Part shown: piece after piece, positions 11,276 to 35,862 of the stretch
How positions within the stretch are numbered: the first letter of the stretch is position 1
Layout: each line of letters starts with the position of its first letter
The notes under the pieces: generated by a model
The model's database searches: none
What the model was told of the DNA's origin: nothing
Seen by the model: only the letters and a program-made list of their open reading frames with translations
Program-made: the position numbers and the translations under genes
Assembly: GCA_946122785.1 (NCBI GenBank)
Contig: CAMGYJ010000008.1
Span: forward strand, 54,012,963-54,076,962
Source of the DNA: Linum tenue
Lineage: Eukaryota; Streptophyta; Magnoliopsida; Malpighiales; Linaceae
DNA: 64,000 nt
Direction: 5' to 3'

Positions 11276-11329
11276 GGGTATGCCTACTATGACATGCATG
11301 TCACGGTGATATGCACTTTTCGGTCGACC
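11276..11329. repeat. Left terminal inverted repeat of the MULE
   Basis: Matches the reverse complement of 35800-35853 over 54 positions without gaps, with about ten mismatches. It contains the 14-bp perfect palindrome TGACATGCATGTCA (11290-11303) and ends in the first GGTCGACC (11322-11329). Confidence 0.9.
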
Positions 11330-11720
11330 TATTCCTGAGGGCGGTCGACCGAATTGACTAATTTGGGCAGCACGAGAAAGCCTTGCGGTCAACCGCCACG
11401 ACCACCTGGTCGACCGCATTTAGTTTAAGTTGGTATTTTTGGTCGAACAGAATAAAACCTCGGTCGGCCATTTCGTTGGCGTCAGAAACAACATGGTCGA
11501 CCACCTAATATATAGGTCGACCACTTGATGGCAGTCATTAACAAAATGGTCGACCGGATAAGGAAAGAGATCGACCAGATAGAAGATAAGTGTTCTATCA
11601 AAGTGTCCAATCATTTGACGTAAAATGAAGATCAAGTGTTGGTTTCTCGGTCGACCTAATCCAGTACGAGGTCGACCGAATACAAGAAAGTCAACCTATG
11701 CCCCGTGTCTTTTTTGCTTA
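11322..11720. repeat. GGTCGACC palindromes, left subterminal arm
   Basis: About nine exact GGTCGACC copies (for example 11322, 11343, 11408, 11495) and several one-base variants such as GGTCAACC and GGTCGGCC. The first two are 21 bp apart start to start. Confidence 0.85.
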
Positions 11721-11999
11721 TGTATGTCGATTTGTGTGGTTAATTTAATCGTATAAATTATGTTTCAAACCATCATAATTAGTCATTAATAATTATAACA
11801 AGGACTCATCAATTCATAGCATAACAACTAAAAATAAAACACACATAAAAATAGCATAATTGTTCACACATAAAAATAAAACTAAAAAAACCATCATAGC
11901 ATAATTGTTCACACATAAAAATAAAACTAAAAAAATAACAGAATAATAATCAACAATCGTTTTGAAAACTAAAACACATAATATAAAATCTCCTCTCTC

Positions 12000-13260: not shown

Positions 13261-13520
13261 CCTGCGATCAAACAAGCAAGAATACACATTAGTCCAATTT
13301 TCGAAATGAACAATACGCGGTCGACCACTCCATAAAGAGGTCGACCACAATTAATTTAAAACGACAATTGGTCGACCTCAGAAGAATCACAGGTCGACCT
13401 CAGTTAGTTTAAAACGAGAACAGGTCGACCTCAGAAGAAGCATAGGTCGACCTCAGCTAATTTAAAACGAGAATGGGTCGATATAAACCCGTAACAATTC
13501 AAGTACAAAATTGCTTTCAA

Positions 13521-14400
13521 AGGTCGACCTCAGAACCATCATAGGTCGACCTCGGCCAAATTGAAACGAGTATGAAATGGCCCAAACGATGGTATCAATT
13601 GAGTGCAAAACAGATACGGTCGACCTCATAATTAGAAGAGGTCGACCAGTGTTAGTTTCGCACAAATTAAAAGACAATGGGACAATAACTCGCACTTTTG
13701 CCTTCATAGGTCGACCTCAGAACCATCATAGGTCGACCTCGGCTAAATTGAAACGAGTATAAAATGGCCCAAATGATGGTACCAATTGAGTGCAAAACAG
13801 ATCCGGTCGACCTCATAATTAGAAGAGGTCGACCAGTGTTAGTTTCGCACAAATTAAAAGACAATGGGACAATAACTCGCACTTTTGCCTTCATAGGTCG
13901 ACCTCAGAACCATCATAGGTCGACCTCGGCTAAATTGAAACGAGTATAAAATGGCCCAAATGATGGTACCAATTGAGTGCAAAACAGATCCGGTCGACCT
14001 CATAATTAGAAGAGGTCGACCAGTGTTAGTTTCGTACAAATTCAAAGACAATGGGACAATAACTCGCACTTTTGCCTTCATAGGTCGACCTCAGGACCAT
14101 CATAGGTCGACCTCGGCTAAATTGAAACGAGTATAAAATGGCCCAAATGATGGTACCAATTGAGTGCAAAACAGATCCGGTCGACCTCATAATTTGAAGA
14201 GGTCGACCAGTATTAGTTTCGCACAAATTCGAAGACAATGGGACAATAACTCGCACTTTTGCCTTCATAGGTCGACCTCAGAAGCATCATAGGTCGACCT
14301 CGGCTAAATTGAAACGAGTATGAAATGGCCCAAATGATGGTATCAATTGAGTGCAAAACAGATCCGGTCGACCTCATAATTAAAAGAGGTCGACCTCAGT
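13521..14400. repeat. Tandem repeat A, 187-bp unit, about 4.7 copies
   Basis: Units start at 13521, 13708, 13895, 14082 and 14269, exactly 187 bp apart. Each carries two GGTCGACC pairs with internal spacing of 22 bp. The copies are nearly identical, which suggests recent amplification. The short open frames on both strands are by-products of the repeat. Confidence 0.95.
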
Positions 14401-14433
14401 CTATAAAACAAAAGGAAAAGGCAATTGAAAGCC

Positions 14434-15070
14434 AGATGCGGTCGACCACGAATATGAGAAGGTCGACCGCACCTGGCGTACAGAAGGTATAATCCCTCTT
14501 TTCAAGCTACAGATCTACATAACAAGGCCAGAAATAGTAGAAAGACATCACAGGTCGACCTCAATATCATCATAGGTCGACCTCTAGCCATAAAACAAAA
14601 GGAAAAGCGGATTGAAAGCTAGATGCGGTCGACCACGAATATGAGAAGGTCGACCGCACCTGGCGTACAGAAGGGAAAATCCCTCTTTTTCAAGCTACAG
14701 ATCTACATAACAAGACCAGAAATAGTAGAAAGACATCACAGGTCGACCTCAATATCATCATAGGTCGACCTCAGTCCATAAAACAAAAGGAAAAGCGGAT
14801 TGAAAGCCAGATGCGGTCGACCACGAATATTCGTGGTCGACCGCACCTGGCGTACAGAAGGGAAAATCCCTCTTTTTCAAGCTACAGATCTAAATAACAA
14901 GGCCAGAAATAGTAGAAAGACATCACAGGTCGACCTCAATACATCATAGGTCGACCTCAATACATCATAGGTCGACCTCAGTCCATAAAACATAAATTTA
15001 ATAGATTACAAGCCAGTTGCGGTCGACCACGATGATGAACAGGTCGACCGCTTCTGACGAACAGAAGCAA
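14434..15070. repeat. Tandem repeat B, about 187-bp unit, about 3.5 copies
   Basis: Units beginning at AGATGCGGTCGACC start at 14434, 14621 and 14809, with a diverged unit at 15015. The sequence differs from array A, but the period (187-188 bp) and the layout of two palindrome pairs per unit are the same. Confidence 0.85.
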
Positions 15071-15599
15071 AACCCCCTCTTTTCCATCTTTAGATTTTTT
15101 GAAAACAAAAGGAATAAGACAAGAATCAACCCAAATGAAAAAGAAGACTGAAAAGCATTATCTTGTTCTTCTTCTAAGTGATGAGGATGAAGGTTTTCAA
15201 GAGTTTTTGGAAAATGGAGTTTTTGGAAATGGGAGAAGAAGATGAAGAAGGGAAAGGAGAGGAAGAATGAGTGGATGTGGGGGGATAGGGTTCTGATTGT
15301 GGTGTAGAATGAGTGGGGGAGGGTTTCTTAAATAGAGGATGGAGGGAGGTTTGGGTGGATGGTCTGGTCAATCGGTTTGGTCGGCCGAATTAAATGCGCG
15401 GTCGACCGCACTAACCTGTTCGGTCGGCCGCCTATGGTCCGGTCAACCGGAAATGTTATGAGGTCGACCGTTTATGACAAATTGTTTATTTCAACCCACA
15501 ATCAATTAACTCATAAATTATTAAGATAATTCGAAGAAAATACAATGCAATCACAGTTATTAAAAAATAAATAAACTCCTAAAAAACAATAGAAGAAAT

Positions 15600-17434
15600 T
15601 TAAGATCCTTTTTTGGGACTTTGTTTCGGGCACTTGGGGCGAAAATGACCATATTTCCCACATTTCGAACACTTTCTTAAACTTTTGCCCGATGCAGTTC
15701 GTGCTGACTTGAATGTCCCCTTGGTCTTCCCAATTTTTGGATCTTTCAAACTTCGAAGGGGTGCTGGAGGGTTTGCCGGTGTGGTGTTGTCTTCTCTCTC
15801 CTTCGCGAACTCAATTGCCCATTGAGTAAGGTCGTCCAACGTCTTAGAGACATGATTAAAAGCAGATTCACTACCACACGCGATGTCACATAAACGCTTA
15901 CACTTTAGAGCCAATCCTCCATGTCTTATCAGTCGACCAACTCTCTCTCCCACATCACCTCCAACTCCAGGATGACGATTTAGTGTCTTCGCATTTTGGG
16001 TCCATCGAAGCTTGAACCAAGACGAGGGTAGTGCGGTGTATCCCATATTTTTTATTACTGTAAGCATGTGTCTGCATGGAAACCCCTTAGATTCAAATAA
16101 TGCACACTCGCATTTGAGATCTTGAGTGGACGTAGTAAATGTTAACCGCCTTATCCGATCTGGGTTCATGTAGTTCTTCAGTATGAATGTCTCTGTCCCA
16201 TCTGATTCATTTCTTCTCTCCGCTAATACATAAGAAGCTTCATTCTCTAGTTCAGTCTTGAAGATAGCAAATGTACGATGAGTGTAGATACTTTCAGCTT
16301 GCATTTCCCAAGTGCGCAGGGCATGCTTGCAGACCAACCTCGTGTGCCTAGAAGAATAATCATCCTGCGCCTCCGTGAAACGCATCCCCTCCAGTGCTTC
16401 ATTAATGCCATGAACAAAACGTTGCAAGCTGTATTGAGTTCCCACATACCCATTTATCCAATGGTTACATGACTCACATCGCCAGGTTGATTGGAGTCCA
16501 CCGAAATAAATATCCTTCAAGTATGCCTCTGCCCACAGTAATTTGTCAGCGTACAAATCCTGCAACCACTTATTTGCAGACAAGCCATGCTGACTAATCA
16601 AAAGCTCCCAACGCCTCTCAAACTCCTCAATCGATATTCGTGCTTTCGCCAAGTAAGTGAATGCGCTAACGAACTCCTTATTATGAACGGCCGTTGTCGC
16701 ATTTGTCTCAAAATGCCAAATACAAAGACGGTGAGGCACTCCAACCAGAACAGTAGCAATGGCACCACGCATAGACTTGTCTCCGTCTGTGATCACTGAA
16801 GTGGGCATCTTAGAGTTCATACACTCCAGAAAAGTATTCAACAACCAAACATAGTTGGGGATTGTCTCGTTATCCAACTGGGCAAAACCATATATGATTT
16901 AACGGTGGTGGTGATTTACACCAACCATCATAACAAATGGTCGATTGTACTTGTTGCGCTTGTAGCATGCATCGAACGCCAAGACATCCCCAAAAAAATG
17001 GTAATCTTCTCTAGATGTGGAGTCCGACCAGAAGAGATTGCCTAATTCACCTTCATCGTTGGTTGTGTACTTGAAGAAGCTGCCCGCATCAGAGGTATGT
17101 TTACTTTGTAAGTAACCCAATGTTCGGTTAACATCTCCTATTAGATCGTCGTCAACTGTTCGGGATTGCTGAACAGCATTGTCCAAATCCTTTGGAGTGT
17201 ACCCCAGATTCTCATATCCTCCAACTTTATTCTTCATGAACTGAACAATGTTGCGTTGTTTTATTCCTGACTGTCGCATCCCTATCGCCAGAGCCTTGTC
17301 TCCTTCACTCACATTTCGATGAGACCGAAGGAATTGAGTTTCTTCTTCATTGCAGCAACGATGTGAGTGCTTCCTCTCAAACTTAGAAACAACCCACATT
17401 TTCTTATTCCGATCAAATCGTACAGTATACGATG
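15600..17434 (-). pseudogene. FAR1/MULE transposase, C-terminal part
   Basis: The main body of a FAR1-related MULE transposase. It contains the end of the FAR1 DNA-binding domain (WVVSKFERKHSHRC), then the transposase core with catalytic acids in VLAFDACYK, ITDGDKSM and FERRWELL. A SWIM zinc finger follows (CECALFESKGFPCRHM), then a C-terminal CCHC knuckle (CSKCGKYGHFRPKCP) near the stop at 15600. One in-frame TAA (16899-16901) interrupts an otherwise continuous frame after VGVNHHHR. The 5' part of the same gene lies at 31289-31721. The two parts were separated by the Gypsy insertion and fit together in frame, 756 codons in total including the nonsense codon. The function would have been to cut and join the MULE ends. 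Confidence 0.92.
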
Positions 17435-17439
17435 CCTTG

Positions 17440-18764
17440 TGATATTCGGCTTTAATATATCGGATTCTTGGACTTTATGTGATTATCCTATGGTATGTTT
17501 AAGCCAATTGGTGCGATTTTAGGGCTCCCTAACCCGAGAATGGTTGAAAAACCATTACTTCCTAGTGCCATGAGTTTGATGTATTACAGGTGAAGAAAGC
17601 ACGAAAAAGGAGCGAGGCTTTTGGACCGGCTGTGCTGGGACAGGCAAATAGGCGGCCATTTATTCTGGGCCATGCCCATGAAATTCTATTTGGTGGAGGA
17701 AGGAATTGGGCTGGGCTTGGGACACAAAAGGCAGATGGACACGGAATTGGCCCAGGGGAATTATTTTGGACGGGGGGAGGAATTAGTGGGCTGGCAATTA
17801 TTGAAGGAGAGGACTTGGAATTTGAGGAGGGCGGCTTATTTGGGGACAGACAATTACGGATGGAACAAAAGCGGGGGAGAAAAATTCTTGGGGCGATTAT
17901 CTTGGAGAGAAAAGCAGCAGCGCGCAGCAGGGAACAGCAGCTCGGCGATTGGTGTCTTCCAAGGCGACGTGAGCTCTCAGCAAAAACAAGTTATTTGGTT
18001 GGATTTTCTAGTCCAAATTATTTGTTTATTGTTGATTTAGAACATGATGATCAAAACTCTAATGTTTTATCTTAATTTCGTCATGAACTAAACCCCAATT
18101 TCTGGGGGAAACACCATAGGATGTAGCTATTTCTTGATTTGAGGGATTGATTCATGATTCTTTTCTTCCAATCTCTATTGCATGGAATTGCTTAATGCTT
18201 TGTGTTGACTGGCCACCAATACAATGAATCGTAGTTAATTAGGTTATTAGCGACAGTGAAACCCTAATAACTGAACCTATTTCATGTGACATAGTAACTT
18301 ATCGAAGCGACAGTGGATTAAATAAGGTACTATGCGGTCTTAATTGGGATATCGGTCTTCAGGCTAAATAGTTAATTCATTGAGCTACGACAGTAGGATT
18401 TGAATTGATTATTTAGTACGTAGTAATGCCGACAGGGATAGCTAGCACAGTAGTGATATCCTGGCTGTAGAGATATGGATTAAATTGATTGGAATGTATG
18501 AATTAATCAGGATAGGATAGGTAGTGAATCCCGGTGTTTCTCCCAGAGTTTTCTCCCATTGATTTAAACCCGACACTTTAATTTGCTTGTTTTGTTTAAT
18601 TACTTTGCTATTAGATCATAGTTTCATCTCATTAAACATTTTCCCATATACTTTGCTCAATAAAAATTGATAGAACTTAAGGTTGTACCAGTCCCTGAGA
18701 GACGATACCCGGACTTTCCGGATTACTACAAGATAGGAATTGGCATTGTGCTTTTGCCCTATCA
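17440..18764 (+). repeat. LTR 1 (5' LTR) of the Gypsy element
   Basis: 1325 bp, TGATA...TATCA. It is followed by AGTTTT and the primer site. It differs from the other two copies by a one-base deletion (AATGCCGACAGG) and several substitutions. It contains overlapping purine-rich open frames of 161 and 139 codons that are also present in the other copies. Confidence 0.95.
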
Positions 18765-18770
18765 AGTTTT

Positions 18771-18788
18771 TGGCGCCGTTGCCGGGGA
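18771..18788 (+). other. Primer binding site, tRNA-Asp type
   Basis: TGGCGCCGTTGCCGGGGA is complementary to the 3' end of plant tRNA-Asp, the usual Athila primer. It lies 6 bp after LTR 1. Confidence 0.85.
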
Positions 18789-18876
18789 CTGCCATACCTT
18801 GTTTTTATTGATTATTGTGAGTGAACTTTTTTGATCTGGGTGTTAGTGTGCAGGTGAATTTTCAGGTTTATCCTCC

Positions 18877-21800
18877 TTGTGCAGGCCAAGGAGGACGACT
18901 GGCAATTTACTGCCACTTGATCCAGAGATAGAGAGGACCTGCCGACAGAACAGGAAGCAGGTCAAGTTAGGGAAGCAGCCTACCACATCCACAACTCCTA
19001 GGCCTTCCCTAACCCAGAATCGTCAACCGAGAAGGCAGGTTTCACCACCTGTCATTCCTACACCACCGACACCACCACCTCGCATTATCGAGCCTGTCAT
19101 CATGGCAGAACAGGATCGATCAATCAGGGCTCGTCTGAATCGGAGGACTGGAGCCCGAGCTTCATGTGTGGTCATTCCGGCTGGGGATGCAAACATGGAG
19201 ATTACCCCAGCCTTCATCAATATGATCACTAATGGGTACACCTTCTCCGGGGCCAGCACTGAGGATCCTCATGAACATCTCCGCCGGTTTGCAAGCATTT
19301 GTGACACAATGAAGAGCCCGGCTGTGTCTGATGATGCCATCCGTCTTCGGATGTTCTCATTTTCTCTGCTAGGGAATGCATCACATTGGTTCCAGAACTT
19401 GACACCCCGTTCCATCACAACATGGGGTCAGCTTGAGAAGACCTTTTTGGACAAATACTTTCCTCCTGCCAAGGCAATGAAGAGGCAAGAGGAAATTGTC
19501 ACTTTTAAACAAGCTGAGGATGAAAGTTTGACCGAGGCATGGGAGCGCTATAAGGAGCTTCTAATGAGATCCCCGAGCCACGGTCTTGAAGATTGGAACG
19601 TGATTTCCATTTTCTTCAATGGAATCAGAAGACAATACCGAGATGCTCTGAATAATGCTTCCCGGAATGGTTTCACAAGAATGGAGGCACCAGAAGCATA
19701 TGAACTGGTGGAGAAGATATGCTCTGAAGATACTGAATGGGGAAGTGAGACCGGCATTCGAAGGAGAGGAGGCTTGCATGAGATAGACAGAGTTGCAAGT
19801 CTAGAAGCAAAGATTGATGCTAAGCTGGACTCCAAGTTCGATGCACTCGAACGAAGGCTGGCTAAGTTGGCTCTTGGTAGACAGGAGGATGTTGCTTATT
19901 GCGAATTATGTGAAGGTGCTCATCATAGGGATCTATGTCCACTGGTGGCTGATCAGATGGAAGATGTGCACTATATCAACAATCAGAGAAATCAAGGCCA
20001 GGGAGGTATGTACTCAAATACCTACAACCCACAATGGAGGAAGCATCCTAACTTTTCCTGGGCGAACAACAACCCAACTGGTGTTCGCAACATTCCACCT
20101 CCAGGCCTGCAGAAACAACAACCTCCACCTCAACCAGAGAAGAAACCACAACTTGAAGAATTGCTTCTGGCTCACATGCAGAAAACCGACAATAATATGA
20201 AGGGCCTGGATCAATTTGTCACTCAACAGCTAGCCATCAACAATAATTTACAATCGTCTATGCTAGCTATGGAGAGGCAGATGGGACAGATGGCTCAAAC
20301 TCTGGCGGATATGCAGGGCAGGATTCTTGGGACATTACCGGCTAATACCGAGAGGAATCCAAAAGATGCTAAAGTTGTGGCGGTGACATTGAGGAGTGGG
20401 AAGGCCTTGGAAGACCCTAGCAGCTCGAAAAAGGCACCAGAGGCAGAAGAGGAAGCAACGGGAGAAAGATTTGGTGCAGAAAATGAAGAATCAGCCTTGC
20501 ACAGGCAAAATGAAAGCGGTTTGCCTGTGCAAAAGCATGCTGCCCGTGCAAAACCAGAAGAGGAAAAAGCGAAGAGGGAGGAGCTAAAACCTTATGACCC
20601 ACCCGCACCATTCCCTCAAAGGTTGATGAAGCCCCTGGAGGACCCGAACTTCAAAAAATTTGTGAATCTCTTCAAGCAATTGCACATCAACATTCCGCTA
20701 GCTGAAGCTCTTGAGCAGATGCCCACCTATGCCAAATTTCTTAAGGAATTGTTGACAAAGAAGAGAAAATGGACTGATTTGGAGAAAGTAACACTCACAC
20801 CAGAGTGTAGTGCTGTTATCCAAAATAAATTGCCAGAGAAGAGGGAAGATCCAGGGAGCTTCACCATCCCATGTATTGTTGGTGAGACAGAGTTTACAAA
20901 GTCGCTTTGTGATCTTGGAGCCGGCATAAACCTCATGCCATATTCTGTTTATAAGAAGCTGGGACTCCAAGATGTGATCAAGCCGACTCGAATTACTCTA
21001 CAGCTGGCTGATCGATCAGTAAAGGTCCCCAAAGGCGTGGGGGAGAACGTGCTAGTGAAGGTGGGGAAATTCATCTTCCCCGCCGACTTCGTCATTCTGG
21101 AGATGGAGGAGGACAGGGAAGTACCTCTCATTCTTGGGAGACCCTTCCTAGCTACGGGGGGTGCTCTCATAGATGTCCAAAAGGGCGAGCTGACATTCAG
21201 AGTCTGTGGGGAAGAGGTAAAATTCAATGTATACCATGCAAGTAAGTACCTTAATGACTCTAGTGATGTGTTTGCTGTGGATGTCATAGAATCATGCACT
21301 GATGCTATTTTGAACAATGATTATGATGGTGATTCTGATAATGAACTTGATGAGCTAACCGTGTCAAAGAGGGCACAAATGCTCGAGGCATTGCCTATGC
21401 AGGTGGAAGGTGATGAAAAGGCTAAGTTTCCAAAGAAAATGGTTCCATCTCGGATTGAGCCTCCGGAATTGGAACTAAAACCATTGCCTAGTCAACTTAA
21501 GTATGCATATCTGGGGGAAAACTCCACTTTACCTGTGATTGTTTCTGCTACACTGACTGATTCGCAGGAACAGGAGCTCTTGAAGGTCTTACGCCAGCAC
21601 ATACAGGCTTTAGGCTGGACAATTGCCGACATCAAAGGCATTAGTCCAGCATTTTGTATGCATAAGATCCTTCTAGAGGAGGAGTCCAAGCCCTCCATTC
21701 AGGCACAACGGAGACTAAACCCGCACATGAAAGAAGTAGTGCAAAAGGAGGTAATGAAACTATTGGATGCAGGTATCATCTACCCTATCTCTGATAGTAC

Positions 21801-24354
21801 TTGGGTTAGTCCCGTGCATGTTGTCCCTAAAAAGGGAGGAATGACAGTAGTGAGAAACGATAAGGATGAGATGATATCTACCCGAACTGTTACGGGCTGG
21901 AGAGTATGCATAGATTATAGGAAGTTGAATGAGGAGACCCGAAAGGATCACTTCCCTCTGCCTTTTATTGATCAAATGCTCGAACGGTTAGCGGGCCATT
22001 CTCACTACTGCTTCCTAGATGGTTACTCCGGTTATTTTCAGATCCCAGTAGCACCGGAGGATCAAGAGAAAACTGCTTTTACATGTCCTTTTGGTGTTTT
22101 TGCATATCGAAGAATGCCTTTTGGATTATGTAATGCACCTGCAACCTTTCAGCGGTGCATGACTGCCATATTCTCTGACATGTTAGAATCGAGTCTTGAA
22201 GTTTTCATGGATGACTTCTCGACTTTTGGTACTAGCTTTGAGCATTGTTTGGCTAACTTGTCTTGAGTTTTGCAGAGATGTGAAGAGACTAATCTAGTCT
22301 TGAACTGGGAAAAATGTCACTTCATGGTGACGGAAGGTATAGTGCTTGGTCATCGAATTTCGGCGAGGGGGATAGAAGTTGATAAAGCTAAGATTGAAAT
22401 CATTGAAAAACTTCCCCCTCCCAGCACAATAAAAGGAATTAGAAGTTTTCTAGGTCATGCCGGTTTTTACTGGAGATTTATTAAAGACTTCTCAAAGATT
22501 ACCAAGCCTTTATGTGATTTGTTGGCCAAAGATACTGTGTTTAACTTCTCTGATGAGTGTTTGCAGGCCTTCAATCGACTTAAGAAGGAGTTAACCTCTG
22601 CTCCCATTATCACTGCACCCGACTGGACTTTGCCATTTGAAATTATGTGCGATGCTAGCGACTATGCAGTCGGGGCAGTTTTGGGGCAGAGGAAGGAAGG
22701 TAAGTTGCATGCGGTGTACTATGCCAGTAAGCTTCTTAATGATGCACAATTGAACTATTCCACTACTGAAAAAGAACTGCTTGCTGTGGTGTTTGCTTTT
22801 GATAAATTTCGATCTTATTTGGTGGGATCGAAAACAGTTGTGTACACTGACCATGCAGCTATACGGCACCTTCTTTCAAAGAAGGAGGCCAAGCCGAGAT
22901 TGCTTCGTTGGGTTCTTCTTTTGCAGGAATTCGACGTTGAAATTCGTGACAAGAAAGGTTCGGCTAATCTGGTAGCCGATCACCTTTCTAGACTTGAGCT
23001 TGAGGCCATTCCTAAGGACAAGGTTGAGATCAACGAGTCTTTTCCAGACGAGCAGCTTTATGCTCTCCTTGTCCAACAAGCTCCCTGGTATGCAGACCTT
23101 GCGAACTACCTCGCCACAGGTAAGCTCCCTGATTTGTCTTATCAACAGCGCAAGAAGTTGATTACTATTGCCAAGAACTATATATGGGAAGACCCCTTCC
23201 TGTATAAGCATTGTGCTGATACCATGGTAAGACGATGTGTTCCTGAGTGTGAGGTAAAGTCAGTACTTAATTTCTGTCATAGTATGGCCGCAGGAGGTCA
23301 CTTTGGACCTCATAGGACAGCAGCAAAGGTGTTACAATCTGGATTTTATTGGCCTTCTCTATTTCGAGATGCCCGTGATTTTGTTGCTCAATGTGATAGG
23401 TGCCAAAGAACAGGGAACATATCTGCAAGGATGGAGATGCCACAGACCTCGATTTTGGAGGTGGAGATGTTTGATGTATGGGGAGTGGATTTCATGGGGC
23501 CATTCGCACCGTCTTTCAACAACAAATATATCTTAGTCGCAGTCGACTATGTATCCAAGTGGGTGGAGGCAGTGGCGTTGCCCACCAATGACTCAAAGAC
23601 GGTGGTGAATTTCATGATAAAGAACGTGTTCACCAGATTCGGAGTCCCTCGAGTTCTCATCAGTGACGAGGGCACACATTTCATGGGAAAGGAGTTGAAC
23701 ACGTTGCTGGCCAGATATGGGGTTCAGCATCGAGTGGCTACACCCTATCATCCACAAACTAGCGGGCAAGTGGAAGTTTCCAACAGAGAACTGAAACACA
23801 TTCTGGAGACGACGGTGAATTCAACAAGGAAAGATTGGGCAAGGAAGTTAGATGATGCACTCTGGGCATACCGGACTGCTTTCAAGACTCCTTTAGGCAT
23901 GTCTCCGTACAGATTGGTGTTTGGAAAAGCTTGTCACTTGCCCGTCGAGCTCGAGCATAAGGCGTATTGGGCTATCAAGAAGCTGAACTTTGATCTAAAA
24001 ACTGCTGGAGAGAAGCGCCTGTTGCAACTGAATGAGCTCGACGAGATTAGGCTTAATGCTTATGAAAATGCCCGGATTTATAAGGAGAAAACCAAGAAGT
24101 GGCACGACCACCACATACTGAGAAGAGAGTTCAAGGTGGGAGAGAAGGTATTAATTTTCAACTCACGCCTTAAACTCTTCCCTGGGAAATTGAAGTCAAG
24201 GTGGTCCGGACCATTTACGGTGACCAAAGTGTACCCACATGGTGCAATCGAGATTCTTGGTGATCAAGGGGCGTTTAAGGTGAATGGTCAGAGGCTCAAG
24301 CACTATATTGAAGGGGTTTCCGTCCTGGAAATCTCAACATATCATCTGGAATGA
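18877..24354 (+). pseudogene. Gag-pol polyprotein of the Gypsy element, one internal stop
   Basis: One frame of 1826 codons, broken only by TGA at 22264-22266, just after the RT active site. Gag core is at about 105-290 (HWFQNL, W.....F...YFP). The CCHC knuckle CELCEGAHHRDLC is near 341, and the protease DLGA at 679. RT has FMDD (Asp at about 1112). RNase H ([26 protein letters not shown]) spans about 1250-1380. Integrase has the HHCC finger and catalytic acids at about 1538, 1597 and 1633, a DD35E spacing. No chromodomain. The open frame begins without an ATG. The sequence before it (CCTTGTGCAG) looks like a splice acceptor or a lost start. The stop may be a CGA-to-TGA change, a CpG transition. 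Otherwise the domains are complete. Confidence 0.93.
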
Positions 24355-25426: not shown

Positions 25427-27121
25427 ATGGGACGTCGAAGATATATCCCTCCACCTCGGCAATTCAAAGTCACTGATCAAAGTGAAGATGGGAAGATTGT
25501 TTACCGATCATGGACGATTGAAGATAGCCACAAGGTGACCGATAAAGACAGCCCAATTCCAGAAGTTCCTGCACAACTTCAAGCGGTCAACATGCCCGCT
25601 CGCTTTCACAGGCTGATCACCGGCCAGGTTGGACCCACGATGCGGTCCCGGACTATTGAGATGACTTCTTCAGCTTCATCTCCACCACAGCAGCCTGCTC
25701 AAATGCCTACTGAAGAACCTCCATTACCAGATTCAACACCAGTTGTATCACCTGAGAGCAGGCCAGCAAAGAGGAGTCGTCTCCAGCAATCGGCCTCATC
25801 TTCACGACCACAGAGGCAGACTTCTTCTTCGGCACCTGCACCATCCACGACACCACGTTGTACTACCCATGTTGCAAGCAAGAAGAAGGCGGCTTCCTCT
25901 CTTCCAAAGGACGTCTCTAAGACGTTCGGTCAACCTGTCCAGCTCCAGGAACATAAAGAAGAATATGACGATCTGATGAAAAGAGAGGTCACCCCTTCTC
26001 AGTTCATGGACTATGCAGCATTGCAGAAGACCGAGCGGGCTGAGGAGGTGATGACATACTTCCGCCGGATGAATTGGGCACGATTTCCGGAGCTGCACTT
26101 CCCCACCTATCCACGCCTCACTAGAGCATTCTTGGCCACCTACAACTTTGAGGATAATGGGGTTGAGAGCAAGCTTCAGAGTACTTTGGCCGGGAAAACC
26201 AAGTCCCTCACTTTGAGCCAAGTAAACCGAGCACTTCTCTTTGATGGTCCAGCAGATGCAATTCCTGATGAAAAGCAGGACTTGAGTGAGTTTTGGACGA
26301 CAATTGTGGCAGATGGAAAGGACTTCAATCCTACTTCTTCGAGGAGAGCATCGATCAGAGACCCTGTGATCCCACTAGTACATGACTACCTGGCTCGCAC
26401 TGTTTTGGGCAAGGGATCCAATGCCAGTGGTGTCTACACACCCGATCTCAGGTACATTCACAGTTTCGTTACTGGAACACCATTATGTGTTGGGTACATG
26501 GTGGGTAAGATGCTTGAAAATGATGCACTGAAAACTTGCGGAGCAATTATGTGTGGGGGAATCATTACTGCATTAGCTCGAGCTTACTGGGGGTTCCCAG
26601 AGAACCCTAAGGGTTTGGAGATCAGTGATGGCTCGACTTTGCTTGGGGAATCAGCGTTATGCAAATTGGGTTTTCTGAGGAAAGCAGGATCTCGTGGTGA
26701 ATATCTATCCATCGCCAAATACAAGGAGTGGGAGATTAAGGTCAATCGAAAAAGAGCAGCAAGGGCTGCTAGAGCAACTTCTGCTTCGGCATCATCTCCC
26801 GCACCATCAGTAGTCACTCCGACCACGACTCCAGCTCCTACACCCATGCCTTTGGGTGCTTCATCATCATCACCATCACCAGCAGCAGCAGGGCACTCTG
26901 CCACGAGTGTCAGCCAGGGCCAGCAGTCACAAGCACCCCCAGTTCCGCAGCCAGCAGCTACTCCACCAGTTGTACCAGCTTCATCATCATCTGAAGACGA
27001 TCTCAGAGTCAGAATAGCTATCTTGGAAGCCAGAGATGCAGAGAAAGATAAGATGATCAAGGAGCTACACCAGCGTCTAGATGAGAAGTTCGGCACTTCT
27101 TCATCGACCCCTCCTTCATAG
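25427..27121 (+). CDS. Extra ORF of the Gypsy element, PF20167-like plant transposon protein
   Basis: 564 codons, fully open. The N-terminal quarter is Ser/Pro/Gln-rich with basic patches (PAKRSRLQQ). The middle (about 190-440) matches the plant transposon protein family: RFPELHFPTYPRLTRAFLAT, then TLSQVNRALLF, YIHSFVTGTPLCVGYMVGKM and IITALARAYWGF. The C-terminal part is Ala/Ser/Pro-rich and ends in a short charged coiled coil (RVRIAILEARDAEKDKMIKE). Its position after pol is that of the env-like or extra ORF of Athila/Tat elements, but I see no clear signal peptide or certain membrane helix. Function unknown. A degraded relative is present in the second Athila-type element (59.4-60.4 kb) and another in the MULE (12.0-13.3 kb). 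Confidence 0.8.
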   Translation: MGRRRYIPPPRQFKVTDQSEDGKIVYRSWTIEDSHKVTDKDSPIPEVPAQLQAVNMPARFHRLITGQVGPTMRSRTIEMTSSASSPPQQPAQMPTEEPPLPDSTPVVSPESRPAKRSRLQQSASSSRPQRQTSSSAPAPSTTPRCTTHVASKKKAASSLPKDVSKTFGQPVQLQEHKEEYDDLMKREVTPSQFMDYAALQKTERAEEVMTYFRRMNWARFPELHFPTYPRLTRAFLATYNFEDNGVESKLQSTLAGKTKSLTLSQVNRALLFDGPADAIPDEKQDLSEFWTTIVADGKDFNPTSSRRASIRDPVIPLVHDYLARTVLGKGSNASGVYTPDLRYIHSFVTGTPLCVGYMVGKMLENDALKTCGAIMCGGIITALARAYWGFPENPKGLEISDGSTLLGESALCKLGFLRKAGSRGEYLSIAKYKEWEIKVNRKRAARAARATSASASSPAPSVVTPTTTPAPTPMPLGASSSSPSPAAAGHSATSVSQGQQSQAPPVPQPAATPPVVPASSSSEDDLRVRIAILEARDAEKDKMIKELHQRLDEKFGTSSSTPPS

Positions 27122-28613
27122 GAGCTTGTCCCGAGGTTCTTTTTTCTTTTCTTTTCTTCTTTTATTTGTGAATACTTCTGATGTGGGTCTGTAATAATGT
27201 TAGTTAGGTGAACCTCTTGGCTTGTCATGTGTAGTTGTAGACATTGTGGACAATGTCCATCCTGAGTGTGGGGTGGATGGTCTGTGTTCTTGTCGTGTTT
27301 TATGTCGAGTCTTAGTTGTCCACAGTGTCTCGTCATGTGTATATCGTTTCTGTAAATAAAAAAAAGCAGGCTGCCTGTGCAAAAGCTAATGGCTAAAAAA
27401 CACCTAGAAATCAAAAAAATTAAAAACCAAACCTTGTACTCTTGTGGTAACATGATGTAAATGACCATGATGCTTTGAAAATGAGTTTGTGCTTGAATGA
27501 AATCATCGAAGTCACCCCACTAGTGTTGAATTGCATGGTTCTTCACAATGAGCTTAAATGTTTTGACTGACTTGATATGCTTTGAATAAGCAAACTCTTT
27601 TAGCAACACTCTCTTTTGTGAGGATAGTGTAATGACTTTTGGTGAAGTAGTTAGGTGGAGAACATTGACCATTCGACATGTTTGGATACCGTGCTTACTT
27701 GCATCAATTGTGGGCTTTTGATTTTGCAATGAGTCTCTCTGTTTTGAATGTTTTATGATGGGGTGAACTGTATCTTTATAAAAGAAAACACTACCTGACA
27801 AGTAAAATATAAGAAAGTTGCCATAACAATTAAAGCGTGGGTAAAAATGCCAAAATCGTGTGAGGCAATCACTCATTGCACATGGGGATGAGGAAAGATT
27901 CAATTGAGAATCGGTTCGCGACCGTACGATGTTGCTTATCAAGTACGATCCCCAGTTGAGTGAAGTGCCATTTGAGGATGCAATGACCCTCCACACGGAC
28001 CGAGGAAAAGGAGTTAAAAGAAGCCCTTATGCGAGTGCTAAGAAGCAGAAATTGCTCTTGCTCGGTCACCGGTAGTAAGAAAAAAATCCCACTTGTACTA
28101 AATACGACTTCTCGGCAAGCAAAAGCAGAAAGAGAGGAAGCCTCTCCTTGTCATAAAAGGTAGTGATGTGCTTAAAGTTAAAATCATGTTTGCGAAAGGC
28201 TTCCCCCATTAGTTTTTGAGACTCGTGCTTAATTAATTGCTTATGATTGGTGTGAGTAAGCCAGATTGTCCTCACGAGATATGCACCTCACTGATGTGGT
28301 TAGATTCTCCTAATAATTATTGCATCATAAGTTGTTAATCAACCACTATCGACGATCGAATTTGAGTGTTGCTATTTGAGTTTTTGGATGAATTTGAGTC
28401 AGTCAATGGTAATGGTTGCAAAGAACTTGAGTGTGGGGTGAAAGGTATGACCATTAAAGCACAACTTATCCGTTGAGAAAGAAACTACTGATTACAACAA
28501 GAGTACAAGGAAAATTTTGTTTTGTTTGAGTGTTGAGTCTGTAATGTGTCATTGTTTTGGATGATTATGTGTTTGTGTTGTCTGAGTCGTTGCTTAGGGA
28601 CAAGCAACAATTG
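27122..28613 (+). other. 3' untranslated region of the Gypsy element
   Basis: No gene. Contains repeated GAGTGTGGGG-type tracts (near 27,264, 28,430 and 28,612), as Athila 3' ends do, and GGGACAAGCAA just before the purine tract, also present in the decayed element near 62,135. Confidence 0.7.
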
Positions 28614-28625
28614 AGTGTGGGGTTG
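28614..28625 (+). other. Polypurine tract
   Basis: AGTGTGGGGTTG directly before LTR 2. It serves as primer for plus-strand DNA synthesis in this retrotransposon class. Confidence 0.75.
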
Positions 28626-29951
28626 TGATATTCGGCTTTAATATATCGGATTCTTGGACTTTATGTGATTATCCTATGGTATGTTTAAGCCAATTGGTGC
28701 GATTTTAGGGCTCCCTAACCCGAGAATGGTTGAAAAACCATTACTTCCTAGTGCCATGAGTTTGATGTATTACAGGTGAAGAAAGCACGAAAAAGGAGCG
28801 AGGCTTTTGGACCGGCTGTGCTGGGACAGGCAAATAGGCGGCCATTTATTATGGGCCATGCCCATGAAATTCTATTTGGTGGAGGAAGGAATTGGGCCGG
28901 GCTTGGGACACAAAAGGCAGATGGACACGGAATTGGCCCAGGGGAATTATTTTGGACGGGGGGAGGAATTAGTGGGCTGGCAATTATTGAAGGAGAGGAC
29001 TTGGAATTTGAGAAGGGCGGCTTATTTGGTGACAGACAATTACGGACGGAACAAAAGCGGGGGAGAAAAATTCTTGGGGCGATTATCTTGGAGAGAAAAG
29101 CAGCAGCGCGCAGCAGGGAACAGCAGCTCGGCGATTGGTGTCTTCCAAGGCGACGTGAGCTCTCAGCAAAAACAAGTTATTTGGTTGGATTTTCTAGTCC
29201 GAATTATTTGTTTATTGTTGATTTAGAACATGATGATCAAAACTCTAATGTTTTATCTTAATTTCGTCATGAACTAAACCCCAATTTCTGGGGGAAACAC
29301 CATAGGATGTAGCTATTTCTTGATTTGAGGGATTGATTCATGATTCTTTTCTTCCAATCTCTATTGCATGGAATTGCTTAATGCTTTGTGTTGACTGGCC
29401 ACCAATACAATGAATCGTAGTTAATTAGGTTATTAGCGACAGTGAAACCCTAATAACTGAACCTATTTCATGTGACATAGTAACTTATCGAAGCGACAAT
29501 GGATTAAATAAAGTACTATGCGGTCTTAATTGGGATATCGGTCTTCAGGCTAAATAGTTAATTCATTGAGCTACGACAGTAGGATTTGAATTGATTATTT
29601 AGTACGTAGTAATGCCCGACAGGGATAGCTAGCACAGTAGTGATATCCTGGCTGTAGAGATATGGATTAAATTGATTGGAATGTATGAATTAATCAGGAT
29701 AGGATAGGTAGTGAATCCCGGTGTTTCTCCCAGAGTTTTCTCCCATTGATTTAAACCCGACACTTTAATTTGCTTGTTTTGTTTAATTACTTTGCTATTA
29801 GATCATAGTTTCATCTCATTAAACATTTTCCCATATAGTTTGCTCAATAAAAATTGATAGAACTTAAGGTTGTACCAGTCCCTGAGAGACGATACCCGGA
29901 CTTTCCGGATTACTACAAGATAGGAATTGGCATTGTGCTTTTGCCCTATCA
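28626..29951 (+). repeat. LTR 2 of the Gypsy element
   Basis: 1326 bp, TGATA...TATCA. It carries private substitutions (for example TTTATTATGGGCC, TTTGGTGACAG, GTCCGAATT), so it is the most diverged of the three. It is followed by 11 bp AGTTTTTGATG, whose first eight bases equal the start of the internal region after LTR 1. Confidence 0.93.
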
Positions 29952-29962
29952 AGTTTTTGATG

Positions 29963-31288
29963 TGATATTCGGCTTTAATATATCGGATTCTTGGACTTTA
30001 TGTGATTATCCTATGGTATGTTTAAGCCAATTGGTGCGATTTTAGGGCTCCCTAACCCGAGAATGGTTGAAAAACCATTACTTCCTAGTGCCATGAGTTT
30101 GATGTATTACAGGTGAAGAAAGCACGAAAAAGGAGCGAGGCTTTTGGACCGGCTGTGCTGGGACAGGCAAATAGGCGGCCATTTATTCTGGGCCATGCCC
30201 ATGAAATTCTATTTGGTGGAGGAAGGAATTGGGCCGGGCTTGGGACACAAAAGGCAGATGGACACGGAATTGGCCCAGGGGAATTATTTTGGACGGGGGG
30301 AGGAATTAGTGGGCTGGCAATTATTGAAGAAGAGGAATTGGAATTTGAGGAGGGCGGCTTATTTGGGGACAGACAATTACGGACGGAACAAAAGCGGGGG
30401 AGAAAATTTCTTGGGGCGATTATCTTGGAGAGAAAAGCAGCAGCGCGCAGCAGGGAACAGCAGCTCGGCGATTGGTGTCTTCCAAGGCGACGTGAGCTCT
30501 CAGCAAAAACAAGTTATTTGGTTGGATTTTCTAGTCCAAATTATTTGTTTATTGTTGATTTAGAACATGATGATCAAAACTCTAATGTTTTATCTTAATT
30601 TCGTCATGAACTAAACCCCAATTTCTGGGGGAAACACCATAGGATGTAGCTATTTCTTGATTTGAGGGATTGATTCATGATTCTTTTCTTCCAATCTCTA
30701 TTGCATGGAATTGCTTAATGCTTTGTGTTGACTGGCCACCAATACAATGAATCGTAGTTAATTAGGTTATTAGCGACAGTGAAACCCTAATAACTGAACC
30801 TATTTCATGTGACATAGTAACTTATCGAAGCGACAGTGGATTAAATAAGGTACTATGCGGTCTTAATTGGGATATCGGTCTTCAGGCTAAATAGTTAATT
30901 CATTGAGCTACGTCAGTAGGATTTGAATTGATTATTTAGTACGTAGTAATGCCCGACAGGGATAGCTAGCACAGTAGTGATATCCTGGCTGTAGAGATAT
31001 GGATTAAATTGATTGGAATGTATGAATTAATCAGGATAGGATAGGTAGTGAATCCCGGTGTTTCTCCCAGAGTTTTCTCCCATTGATTTAAACCCGACAC
31101 TTTAATTTGCTTGTTTTGTTTAATTACTTTGCTATTAGATCATAGTTTCATCTCATTAAACATTTTCCCATATAGTTTGCTCAATAAAAATTGATAGAAC
31201 TTAAGGTTGTACCAGTCCCTGAGAGACGATACCCGGACTTTCCGGATTACTACAAGATAGGAATTGGCATTGTGCTTTTGCCCTATCA
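29963..31288 (+). repeat. LTR 3 of the Gypsy element
   Basis: 1326 bp, TGATA...TATCA. Followed by the CCTTG target duplication. Nearly identical to LTR 1 and LTR 2. Confidence 0.95.
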
Positions 31289-31721
31289 CCTTGCAAGAAT
31301 GTCTTGTCATCTTACGATGTTGCCGAGTCCGACCTTCTTTATCTATATGCATCTTACCTCTAGTCCCCTCTCTCGAACATACCATTGTCCTCCCAATTGC
31401 TACTCCTCGACGACTCCTCCGAAGATCTCTACGTCGAACGCTAAATCCTTTCGCTTTAGCATAGGAATCGTAAAATTTCTCTGCATCTTCTAATGTTTGG
31501 AACTCCATGGAAGGAATTTGTTGTTCATATTCAGTAGCTTCTTCATCATCCATAAATTCTTCTTCTGCACCCTCGGTTTCATAATCATCTCCAAGCACTT
31601 CATCATCGGTATTATCTGTATCATCTGAATTATCCATAGCTCCTTCTCGAGCATCATTAGGTTCCTCATCGAAGTTAACCTCATCATCATCTCTATCATC
31701 TGTATCATCTCTGTTATCCAT
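31289..31721 (-). pseudogene. FAR1/MULE transposase, N-terminal part
   Basis: Starts with ATG at 31721, directly after an acceptor-like GATCGTTGCAG, so a 5' leader intron is likely. An Asp/Glu-rich head (about 1-75) is followed by the FAR1 DNA-binding domain: FYDSYAKAKGFSVRRRDLRR, MVCSREG, RKMTRHSC. The frame ends at the Gypsy LTR after 144 codons plus one base and resumes in phase at 17434 on the far side of the insertion. FAR1-type zinc-finger domains bind the ends of the element and recruit the transposase core. Confidence 0.92.
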
Positions 31722-31774
31722 CCTGCAACGATCGGAATACGAACTTAATGTCAAAACATACACAATTAGCTCTC

Positions 31775-32580
31775 GTCAGGTCGACCTGAATGAACTGTAC
31801 GGTCGACCTTATTACTAAATAACAAACATGCGGTCGACCTAAATGTACAGAAAGGTCGACCTAATCCTATAATTACGAAAGTACGGTCGACCGGATGGTG
31901 GGGGTGGTCGACCGGATGGTGGGAAAAATTTAACCACATACAACCATTAACAAGCATATACGAGGCATATCTTAGCAACGAGGTCGACCACTTATTGTTA
32001 CGGTCTACCGGAATAAAAATAAACCGCCACCAACACCCGATCACAATAAGAGCGATGAGATTATAACTTCACTCCAACAAATTGTAAGATTTCGTGGTAC
32101 GATTAATGTCTGAAGACTCCCATCTATTTATAGATAATTTAGACGAATTCCTTATCCAATTGGTTCAAGATATATAAAATCATAATTCGACAAGGACAAG
32201 TACACAAAATCCTAATTGTACAAGGACAGGAATCATCACGGTCGACCTCTTTGCACAAATGGTCGACCGTCTTGGGTAAATGTGAAACAGGTCGACCTCT
32301 TTACACAAATGGTCGACCGTTGTTTTTAAATGTGAAACAGGTCGACCTCTTTACTGAAATAGTCGACCATTGATTATAAATGTGAGCACAGGTCGACCTC
32401 TTGACAAGAATGGTCGACCGTACTTTTATTAAGGCCAAACAAACGAGAATCCATACTTATTTTACATGGTTTTTGACTTTCCTACGGTATCATAGGTCGA
32501 CCTTAAGCTTCACGAGGTCGACCTGTGCTCTGCCTTTGGCCTTTGGGTATGCCCGCTTTGAGTGTGTGGTCGACCACTTG
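31775..32580. repeat. GGTCGACC palindromes between the transposase and Ulp1 genes
   Basis: About 17 exact copies in the spacer upstream of the transposase and downstream of the Ulp1 gene. In the 32,240-32,430 part four consecutive pairs follow the form GGTCGACC-N13-GGTCGACC (21 bp; one second palindrome is altered to AGTCGACC). The palindromes stop before both coding regions. Confidence 0.9.
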
Positions 32581-32731
32581 TTATAGACGATTGAAATCGT
32601 AAATTCAGTCACATCCATAATTGTATAACAAATCTAATAAACGATAAACATTCAAAATCCAAAATGACACGATCTCGCAAATACAAATTAAATGTATGGT
32701 CCAAATAATGCAACATTGTAACTTAACGACT

Positions 32732-34776
32732 TCATTTCTTTGCTTTTTTCTTTGAACTCTGTCTCTCTTTGCCTCGTTCCATGCATTCATCTACTACATG
32801 CTTGAAAAGATTTTCTCGTGCACGGTTTTCAAAATGTGTAGCCAGATACCATAGAATCTCCTTTCGAGCCGGTAATTTGTGTTCTTCTCCTATCTGCATT
32901 ATGCCATGTAAGATTTCGTTACAACTTAAAAAAGTGTAAATTATACTAGTTATTTGTTTGACGATATACTCACCACTCTATCAAGATCCTTGGATCCATA
33001 GCGCATCCACTGCATGACGTGCACACCACACTCAGTACTATTCCTTTTTCGTTGAACTGGTAGCTCATCAAAATTGAAATCTCCAAAATTTGGTACTACT
33101 ACATTGCTCGTGCGCTCTGGTTTCAAAATATCATCCAAAGTGGACAACTACACACAAATAACGAATATTTTAAGCTTCTAGCATACTACGTAACGCTTAG
33201 TAGTCAGAAAATTATAGGAAACACTTACCAATTTCTTGCATAGTTCTGATTTACGCCTACAATTCGCCTCACTAGTTGAAGGTAGACTGTCAAGCAAAAA
33301 TGCAGTTTTCTGCTGGACATTGACGAGATACAGAAACCAATGACGTGCTTCATCGTCAAGAACTGGCATAAATATCTAGCAACGAAACACTCACTATATG
33401 TTATAAACAGCGAATACAAACAAATGCACTTTCAAAATTTAATGATATAGGGACATTGACTAGACTAACCTTCTGGCATGCACTGACATTCGGCATAAAG
33501 TCCACGCCATCATTCATCAACTTGTTACGAATTTGTCTGGTCTTCATGTTAGCGCGTACCATTTTCTGCACCATGTTTTAGTTGAGATGAATTGACATGG
33601 TACAATATAAATAACTAGGTTATGACAAATAATTTGACATTACGGCTCTTACCGAAAACATATTTGGCAAATACCACACATTTGGCTCTTTCACATCATG
33701 TTTTTCAGACATTGTTAGTGCCCTTGCACACAAATCCACTACCTACCATCCAACAATCAAACACAAAATCATCGTAAATCGTAACATAAATAGTGCACAA
33801 TTCATACGAAAGTCGTAGTAGTATAGTACTTACTGATGAGCAAACCCAGCTTTTCTCGCTAATGACCGAACTCAAATAATGTCGTTGCAGGTTTTCAGAA
33901 AAAAAGTCCACAACGTTCAAACTACAAAAATCAATTTTCACAGAAATGTCAATTGTTTTTTTGCAACGTACAGGTCGACCTGTACACAGTCACGGTCGAC
34001 CTTATTGGACAAACGGTCGACCTTATTGGACAACCGGTCGACCACACGTACTAAAAAAAACGTCTTACTTGTCCCAATTCTTGTCCCCAACCTTCTCTTT
34101 AGTAACAACATAATACAAGTCTTCAACTGGATTTTGAAGATTTTTGGTGAATCCTTCTAGACCCTCCACTTTCATGACCTACAAATCATAGTTAAAATTA
34201 AAGTAACATATGAACACAAACACACATTATAGATGAATATGTAACGTAAACTTACCCCGTGCTTTTCGAAAGGACTCTTAGATTCATCTTCATCGCTATC
34301 ATCACTAAATAATCCCTTTCTTACAAATTGATCCTTCTGTGGAGTGGTGTAGGAGTCACTTTCATATCGCGGTCTCTTGTAATTAGGAGAGGAACCCTTG
34401 CGGCCATTCTTTGTTTCACTCTGTCAAACATATAAACAAAACAAATTAGCACTAATGATAGTAATACTAATATCTTCAATCACATATGAATATACTTGGA
34501 TACCTTTAAAATGTGCTCTTTCAATAAATCGTCTATGCTCTGGTAGCAATTTTCAGAGTCATCATGGTCTTCCTCTTTACCAATGTCAAATTTCTTTCCT
34601 TTGCCATTTCTTCTGCCATTCTCCATTCGTTCTACACTTATATCTTTGATAGCACCTTCTAGCCTCTCAAACCCGTCATGCATCATCCCAGTCATATCTG
34701 TCAGTCGAACTGACAATTGCTCGACTTGTGTTTGACACACCACCAACTTCTCTTGTGTGGCTTTCAACAATTTCAT
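32732..34776 (-). CDS. Ulp1-like (C48) cysteine protease of the MULE, nine exons
   Basis: Exons: 34776-34504, 34420-34256, 34178-34069, 33921-33834, 33742-33653, 33565-33470, 33375-33229, 33147-32974, 32893-32732. All eight introns are GT-AG with good donors, and phases join into 434 residues without a stop. Residues 1-91 are coiled-coil-like (LLKATQEKLVVCQTQVEQL) with a basic KGKK patch. An acidic Ser-rich segment follows. The C48 core holds the triad in ARHWFLYLV (His), FLLDSLPS (Asp) and STECGVHVMQWM (Cys). The tail is Lys-rich. C48 enzymes cut SUMO-like modifiers. The target of MULE-borne copies is unknown. Upstream, an ATG at 34816 is followed by an in-frame TAG, so I chose 34776. It looks intact although the transposase is dead. 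Confidence 0.85.
33971..34047. repeat. Four GGTCGACC palindromes inside an intron of the Ulp1 gene
   Basis: They fall in the intron 33922-34068 and are spaced 21 bp each (GGTCGACC-N13 three times). The neighbouring exons have none. Confidence 0.9.
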
Positions 34777-34889
34777 GATTTCACCCTAATCTTGATGCAG
34801 TTTCTCATCATGCGTCATCGTCTAAACAATTTAAAGAAAAATTAAAATCATAATTCAAGTACAAATTTCTACAATTGACCAAAAAACAA

Positions 34890-35830
34890 AGACGTGGTCG
34901 ACCTGACAAAGTATTAGGTCGACCTGGAAGACAAATAGTGACTACCACAACTCGTCAGGTCGACCTCTGTTATTCCTAGGTCGACCTATCTAGCAGGAAA
35001 ATAACAATTAACAACAAAAATTAAGTTCAAAATTAAACCGAAAAAAGGATAGGTCGACCAGATATCTGGCGCGGTCGACCTTTTAAAGCACAACATAGTC
35101 ATACAAACAAAGCCAAAGTCGACATTCAGGTTGAATAACCAAAAAAACATAAACGGTTGACCTTGAAACCCATTAGGTCGACCAATTGGGTTACCTCGCA
35201 AGTACAGAAGTCCAAGTGTTGTGGCCTAAATTCAAATACGAAGAATTGTCTCGTCAGGTCGACCTGGTGGACGTCGCGGTCGACCGAATTGAATTCTGCA
35301 CCCAACAATATATCAAGTTAGCCGGTGGAAATCACGCATTAAAAAAGAAGACGGCGAATGCTACATTAGGTCGACCTCACCTTAGACCTGGTCGACCACT
35401 TCCAACATGTACAACAGCAACCGCGAACGATCTTCTTCACAAAGGCTCTAAGTCGGAAAAAAACCTAATTCAGACTTGGTGGCGTTGAAGGGGACTTATA
35501 TTCGTATTTATAGAGATTTAGGATGTGAATGGGTCGACCCAATTCGTTTCCTTGTCCAATTGTGGAACCTTTCTGGTGTTGGAATCCATATCCAATACGG
35601 ATATGGTGTAAAGGCGGTCGACCTCTTCATAATGCGGTCGACCTGTTAGGTGCACAAGGGTCGGCCTATGAGATATTTGGGTCGACCTGTCATTCTGTTA
35701 GACCACCAAAGCGGTCGACCTTATTATGTAAGAGGTCGACCGCTTCTCGGAACCCCACATACATGAATTAGTCCATTCGGTCGACCGCATGTTGGATTCG
35801 GTCGACCGAAAAGTCCATGTCACGGTGACA
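34890..35830. repeat. GGTCGACC palindromes, right subterminal arm
   Basis: About 19 exact copies between the Ulp1 start and the right inverted repeat, mostly as pairs with 20-21 bp spacing. The DNA between pair members shows no common sequence. Confidence 0.9.
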
Positions 35831-35853
35831 TGCATGTCACCGTAGCAAAATCC
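35800..35853. repeat. Right terminal inverted repeat of the MULE
   Basis: Counterpart of 11276-11329. It contains TGACATGCATGTCA (35826-35839) and begins with a GGTCGACC. It is followed by the duplication TAAAGTTTA at 35854-35862. Confidence 0.9.
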
Positions 35854-35862
35854 TAAAGTTTA

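Follow-up and report, generated by a model that had tools for sequence, protein, structure and literature searches.

The Mutator-Like Element and Its Genes

The region analyzed in this work (hereafter, the window) is a 64,000-nucleotide stretch of contig CAMGYJ010000008.1 of Linum tenue; it embeds a transposon which, judging from its transposase domain and its target duplication of about 9 bp, is a Mutator-like element (MULE). The element harbors three genes, coding for a protein with a PF20167 match, a FAR1-type transposase, and an Ulp1-like protease, respectively (Table 1), and its noncoding DNA is crowded with an 8-bp palindrome, GGTCGACC, which is mostly arranged in pairs about 21 bp apart and is the subject of the present analysis.

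Table 1. Features of the Mutator-like element and of its palindrome-bearing blocks (positions in the window).
Feature	Position	Strand	Remarks
Whole Mutator-like transposon	11276..35853		24,578 bp including the nested retroelement; terminal inverted repeats and 9-bp duplication
Target-site duplication, left copy	11267..11275		TAAAGTTTA; 9 bp, identical to 35854-35862
Left terminal inverted repeat	11276..11350	+	Palindrome pair at +47 and +68 (11322, 11343)
Left-end block	11322..11677		8 GGTCGACC sites and decayed partners
PF20167 (Transposase_32) gene	12003..13260	-	Pfam 2.4e-13; eight Linum trigynum relatives
Largest block, from the PF20167 gene to the transposase	13319..15469		43 sites, including a 187-bp tandem array
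Transposase, C-terminal part	15600..17439	-	MULE catalytic domain and SWIM zinc finger (Pfam); one in-frame stop
Nested Athila-type long terminal repeat (LTR) retroelement	17440..31288	+	13.8 kb, splits the transposase; 5-bp duplication CCTTG; no GGTCGACC
Transposase, N-terminal part	31289..31718	-	FAR1 zinc-finger DNA-binding domain, Pfam 4.2e-11
Transposase-protease intergenic block	31779..32575		17 sites; presumed promoter side of the transposase
Ulp1-like (Peptidase_C48) gene	32732..34776	-	9 modelled exons with GT/AG at their junctions; 434 amino acids
Intron 3 of the protease gene	33973..34043		Four palindromes, in steps of exactly 21 bp
Right-end block	34896..35807		19 sites
Right terminal inverted repeat	35779..35853	-	Palindrome pair at 35800 (+47 from the tip) and 35779 (+68)
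Target-site duplication, right copy	35854..35862		9 bp

The window copy is damaged: the PF20167 gene is spread over two frames and contains a stop, and the transposase carries an in-frame stop besides the retroelement insertion. The transposase is 95% identical to a 722-residue Linum trigynum protein over 92% of the query; the MULE domain PF10551 was found in it and, at 1.3e-22, in its relative P0001, which has the FAR1, MULE, and SWIM domains, as in the window element. Structure models of the transposase and of the PF20167 protein (mean predicted local distance difference test score, pLDDT, of 38 and 35, respectively) were too poor for use; the former gave no fold match at E 0.001, and the search of the transposase sequence against solved structures retrieved a single weak and unrelated match (E 0.013). 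The Ulp1-like protein matches PF02902 at 3.8e-13, the first exon boundary of its gene model being uncertain, and probing 3141 candidates did not retrieve any homologue at E 0.001.

As for other features of the element, the C end of the PF20167 protein (12003-12281) is a repeated methionine-rich segment of the YMGQM type that follows an acidic stretch and may form a coiled coil; the terminal repeat holds a second palindrome, TGACATGCATGTCA (11290-11303 and the matching right end), present in all four ends compared; and the nested retroelement (17440-31288) contains its terminal-repeat region three times, two of these copies being tandemly placed on the 3' side (spacing 1337 bp).

Number and Placement of the Palindrome

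The window contains 91 exact copies of GGTCGACC, against 0.37 expected from dinucleotide content, and among the 8-mers with at least 10 occurrences in the window this is the one with the highest ratio of observed to expected counts. All 91 sites lie inside the MULE, in five noncoding blocks: the left end, the PF20167-transposase interval, the transposase-protease interval, the third intron of the protease gene, and the right end (numbers in Table 1). None falls in the 4,836 bp of modelled coding exons, and the site-free gap of 16 kb between 15462 and 31779 is mainly the nested LTR retroelement. An earlier note on this DNA had described the motif pattern between 13315 and 35830, without mentioning that its carrier is a transposon; the pattern and the blocks in that extent are real, the left end with its 8 further sites at 11322-11671 having been missed.

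With the two strands taken together and duplicates not collapsed, the base that follows the palindrome on its 3' side is T in 102, G in 47, A in 30, and C in 3 out of 182 cases, so that C is almost absent. Moreover, GGTCGACC contains one CpG and, because of this, binding to it may depend on methylation.

Spacing of the Palindromes in the Window

The distances between neighboring sites are 20 bp in four cases, 21 bp in 22, and 22 bp in 16 (42 in total), the rest being scattered; when 91 sites were placed at random in the same noncoding stretches, the mean number of neighbors at 20-22 bp was 4.3 and the maximum 12 in 2000 trials. Tandem arrays with periods of 187 bp, 50-53 bp, and 21 bp exist among the sites, and the 187-bp array, already suspected in the earlier note, does inflate the raw counts. 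The spacers were collapsed by sequence identity. Single linkage at 70% identity gave 23 groups (15 at 21 bp, four at 20, and four at 22); at 60%, average linkage gave 18 groups (13 at 21 bp), complete linkage 19 (14 at 21 bp), and single linkage, the strictest collapse, 10 (8.8 at 21 bp), chance chaining being expected in this last case, since 1.8% of random 13-mer pairs exceed the cut-off.

The claim of palindromes paired at about 21 bp with unrelated spacers is therefore confirmed, by 42 raw neighbors and 10 to 23 independent pairs; the more precise figure of over 20 independent pairs is reached with a single clustering (23) out of four, while the peak at 21 bp is found with all of them. The distance histogram after removal of duplicated units, which had been named as the check able to refute the claim, is not flat and peaks at 21 bp.

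Most of the lone sites have a decayed partner: once sites with one mismatch are included, only two of the 91 are left without a partner at 19-23 bp, and 89 are paired. Within the element, excluding the retroelement, there are 13 one-mismatch sites: nine have an intact site at 20-23 bp, two stand 21 bp apart, and two are in the transposase coding sequence; two-mismatch sites gave no peak at 20-22 bp in the same scan. A possible helical phasing of the longer intervals was also considered (for 27 independent intervals, R was 0.40 with a p of about 0.013 at a period of 10.5 bp, and 10.2 bp fitted best among seven periods) and dropped, because the signal is too weak given the several periods tried.

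Pairs in the Whole Genome

The pairs were then counted in 692 Mb (17 contigs), every copy of the repeated families being included; the control was the reversed GGTCGACC pattern, which is itself palindromic and has the same bases. Uncollapsed, the genome holds 71 pairs at 8-18 bp, 11,986 at 19-24 bp, and 4,594 at 25-42 bp, compared to 2, 2, and 18, respectively, for the control; at exactly 21 bp there are 8,392 pairs and none in the control. In the 25-42 bp class, many of the places listed are 42-bp steps in 21-bp arrays. The stretches that were inspected hold 322 adjacent pairs at 19-24 bp, most of the genome pairs having been counted only.

Sister Copies and Element Ends

Further copies were sought with an 84-bp terminal query (at least 41 matches; 40 of the 1,185 first-look candidates were scored), which retrieved thirty loci, the window itself among them. 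Ten loci were extended, eight of which overlap loci from earlier pair and end searches; they comprise seven long copies with 81-99 sites each, a partial one (E9, 32 sites), and two short ones (E2 and E5, with 8 and 14 sites). In the long copies E1, E3, and E8 the transposase match spans all 722 residues with no stop. The 9-bp target duplication is present in the window element and in seven of the ten other copies (two with one mismatch); in E1, E4, and E9 the script did not detect it. The PF20167-transposase interval holds between 35 and 46 sites, depending on the copy (seven copies, the window included).

E2 is a non-autonomous element of 1,086 bp (L037, from 4726), with its own 9-bp duplication and an unrelated interior. 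Four ends were compared, both of the window element and both of E2, and in each of them the palindrome pair stands at +47 and +68 from the tip. Positions 4-84 of E2 match 323-403 of the autonomous copy E1, a segment that includes both palindromes and stops four bases beyond the second; at the other end, the match (positions 1036-1093 with E1 11110-11167) is limited to the repeat and the outer palindrome, and the inner palindrome is still at +68 although the surrounding similarity drops to 4-6 of 10. The remaining matches reported between E2 and E1 are short (17 to 96 bp), many of them on palindromes.

Six of the seven other stretches of contig C2 match E2 (L055-L060), and L061 is of a different kind. 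Two of the six lack an intact copy of the repeat core searched for; in the six loci, all five one-mismatch sites near intact sites stand 20-21 bp from another site.

The other short copy, E5 (L043:146-1865), is an internally deleted element of 1.7 kb which retains its two ends and a C-terminal part of the PF20167 gene and has a 9-bp duplication of its own.

Conservation of the Motif Between Copies

The right end was aligned in 30 copies, with 18 motifs (31 were aligned and the duplicate of the window was dropped); L009, which has a different interior, and the first 100 columns, which had served to pick the copies, were left out beforehand. At non-CpG positions, the divergence is 0.0168 in the motif against 0.0317 elsewhere, and seven of 5000 random 8-mer sets are as low; at CpG positions, it is 0.0217 against 0.0554, and five of 5000 resamplings are as low. 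The eight bases on each side of the motif diverge by 0.025-0.068 in the same 30 copies. In three other blocks (7-8 copies), changes at non-CpG positions are 14/1281 in the motif and 265/11118 elsewhere (Fisher p 0.0019), and those at CpG positions 8/631 and 23/805 (p 0.044), with a motif/other divergence ratio of about 0.45; these p values are to be taken as a guide only, since the cells are not independent.

The spacing within pairs is conserved as well. At the right end, it changed in none of 232 copy-by-pair comparisons, against 24 of 263 for the longer intervals, and in the three other blocks in 2 of 112, against 7 of 92; the left-end block alone shows no difference (1 of 39 for each interval class). 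Overall, pair spacing changed in 2 of 344 comparisons and the longer intervals, which are also larger targets, in 31 of 355.

The CpGs of the spacers diverge by 0.106, compared to 0.052 for the other CpGs (only 303 cells, with the window counted twice); because of this, the low CpG decay seems to be a property of the motif rather than of a demethylated region. The facts fit the idea that the motif has been kept because the copies bearing it spread better.

A Proposed Paired Binding Unit for an Element-Encoded Protein

The simplest account of these sequence data is a protein that would read two palindromes from one face of the helix, as had been proposed in the earlier note; the "dimer of dimers" suggested there is only one way to achieve this. 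The preference given there to a protein over simple repeat expansion is supported, but expansion has also occurred (the 187-bp, 50-53-bp, and 21-bp arrays), so that one does not preclude the other.

We propose, giving it an even chance of being right, that GGTCGACC-N13-GGTCGACC is bound as a unit by a protein encoded by the element, most likely its FAR1 zinc-finger transposase, and that the internal sites are regulatory. According to this model, two FAR1 domains would sit on each palindrome, and a tetramer, or two cooperating dimers, would read both palindromes of a pair jointly, their distance of two helical turns placing them on one face of the helix. The pairs at +47 and +68 would belong to the end complex required by the transposase. 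The internal pairs, in the noncoding DNA that surrounds the three genes, would attract this protein too, leading to control of the transcription or of the chromatin of the element. The transposase is favored as the reader because it carries a FAR1 zinc finger and because the end segment with the pair is common to elements with otherwise unrelated interiors.

Several points weigh against this proposal. To our knowledge, no FAR1-type protein binds GGTCGACC, and the FHY3/FAR1 site, CACGCGC, is unlike it. The 81-99 sites of each long copy, mostly internal, are far beyond what end recognition needs and could divert the transposase; by analogy with the VANC targets of Arabidopsis VANDALs, such internal, gene-adjacent sites would point elsewhere or to a second role. 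The shared +47/+68 position may partly be plain inheritance, because the outer parts of the ends are homologous. Moreover, two of the 91 sites have no partner even when one-mismatch sites are counted, just two of the four one-mismatch sites of L061 are 21 bp from another site, and the structure models of the transposase and of the PF20167 protein are unusable.

Alternative Explanations

Statements on PMC5735166, PMC13317346, PMC6446971, PMC9569675, PMC10368747, and PMC3544724 refer, here and below, to the covered part of each text.

The pairs might be the targets of a separate anti-silencing protein similar to VANC, either the Ulp1-like or the PF20167 protein, which would strip silencing marks from the copies of the family; we regard this explanation, the main competitor of our proposal, as possible, though doubtful. 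VANC21 and VANC6 bind short, noncoding, repeated motifs of their own VANDALs (PMC5735166), and some VANDALs have a VANC with an Ulp1 domain (PMC13317346), a counterpart of which is the Ulp1-like gene found here; the absence of sites from the modelled coding exons, the four sites in an intron, and the variable site number in the PF20167-transposase interval would also be in agreement with it. On the other hand, the VANC motifs described in PMC5735166 are non-palindromic and arrayed in one orientation, with no mention of a paired spacing in the text covered, and the terms "palindrom", "dimer", and "spacing" are absent from the main text of PMC10398659. Furthermore, Pfam did not retrieve DUF1985 from the Ulp1-like protein (E up to 1), from the PF20167 fragments or three relatives of that protein (E up to 10), or from the transposase relative, although a very diverged copy would escape these scans. 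The higher divergence of the spacer CpGs is a further point against anti-silencing.

Rather unlikely, in our opinion, is a combination of this kind of function with the proposed binding by the transposase: one code for two jobs, in which the same element protein would act at the ends for movement and at promoters and introns against silencing, joining functions that are separate in VANDALs, the code being worn by non-autonomous copies too.

An improbable alternative is that a host DNA-binding protein, e.g., a WRKY factor, uses the sites, and that the element exploits this binding for its expression. The half-site GGTCGA differs by one base from the W-box, GGTCAA, and the sites are clustered beside the element genes; the end pairs on a copy without those genes are, however, hard to explain by expression.

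Lastly, tandem duplication alone, with the pair as a passive passenger of the 21-, 50-53-, and 187-bp repeat expansion, is very improbable: the arrays do exist and inflate the raw count, and the strictest clustering leaves 10 independent spacers, but the 10 to 23 unrelated spacers at near-constant spacing, the decayed partners at 21 bp, the reduced divergence restricted to the 8 bp, and the rarely altered spacing of the pairs compared with the longer (and larger-target) intervals all argue against it.

Comparison with Known Systems

The VANDAL/VANC system of Arabidopsis (Hosaka et al. 2017, PMC5735166) resembles the Linum element in being a multi-gene MULE with a dense short motif in noncoding DNA; the VANC motifs are repeated in introns, intergenic, and terminal DNA, often in changing tandem repeats, by which they spread. 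Unlike VANDALs, which lack terminal inverted repeats (TIRs), the Linum element has TIRs at both ends and a FAR1 transposase, and the motif that it carries is palindromic, 8 bp long, and paired at 21 bp.

The FAR1-type MULEs including Jittery (group 36, PMC6446971) share with it TIRs and a transposase with an N-terminal FAR1 part and a C-terminal SWIM part, and Jittery also makes 9-bp duplications (PMC9569675). Group 36, known from dicots and monocots, is listed with one open reading frame, whereas the Linum element carries three genes along with some 90 paired palindromes.

A Peptidase_C48 (Ulp1) gene is also found in the Ulp1-carrying MULEs (Kaonashi/KIU, and those of melon, rice, and grapevine; PMC13317346). 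Those of Arabidopsis are non-TIR elements with Ulp1 in a VANC-type protein, in contrast with the TIRs and the Ulp1-like protein without detected DUF1985 of the Linum element.

A functional parallel comes from the hAT element Hermes, the zinc-finger BED domains of whose transposase bind a quasi-palindrome in the subterminal repeats, the phasing to the end being critical (PMC10368747). Hermes differs in belonging to another superfamily, in its type of zinc finger, and in its short AAGT-type motif, the mapped repeats being within the transposon ends.

A limited, title-level check of the literature retrieved no description of GGTCGACC in plant transposons, and the terms "palindrom", "GTCGAC", and "Ulp1" are not in the covered text of the flax transposon survey PMC3544724.

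That plant transposons label their copies with short motifs, to be recognized by self-made proteins, is already known. The published VANC motifs, as far as covered, are single and asymmetric; a strict pair of palindromes two turns apart is a much more specific address, and the geometry of the pair predicts that of its reader. Since the pair occurs in the ends as well as between genes, and the copies are close in sequence, the family offers a clean test of a transposase as regulator or anti-silencer of its own family.

Other Features of the Window

Outside the element, an inverted repeat at 10305-10752 (174-nt arms, 84% complementary, 100 nt apart) is perhaps another small transposon, and the open frames at 56162-58403, examined by eye, resemble the remains, in pieces, of a second Ty3/Gypsy-type retroelement. 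A gene for a leucine-rich-repeat receptor kinase, which we take to be TMK-like, is located at 2780-5980 (Pfam for 3509-5980), apparently with one intron.

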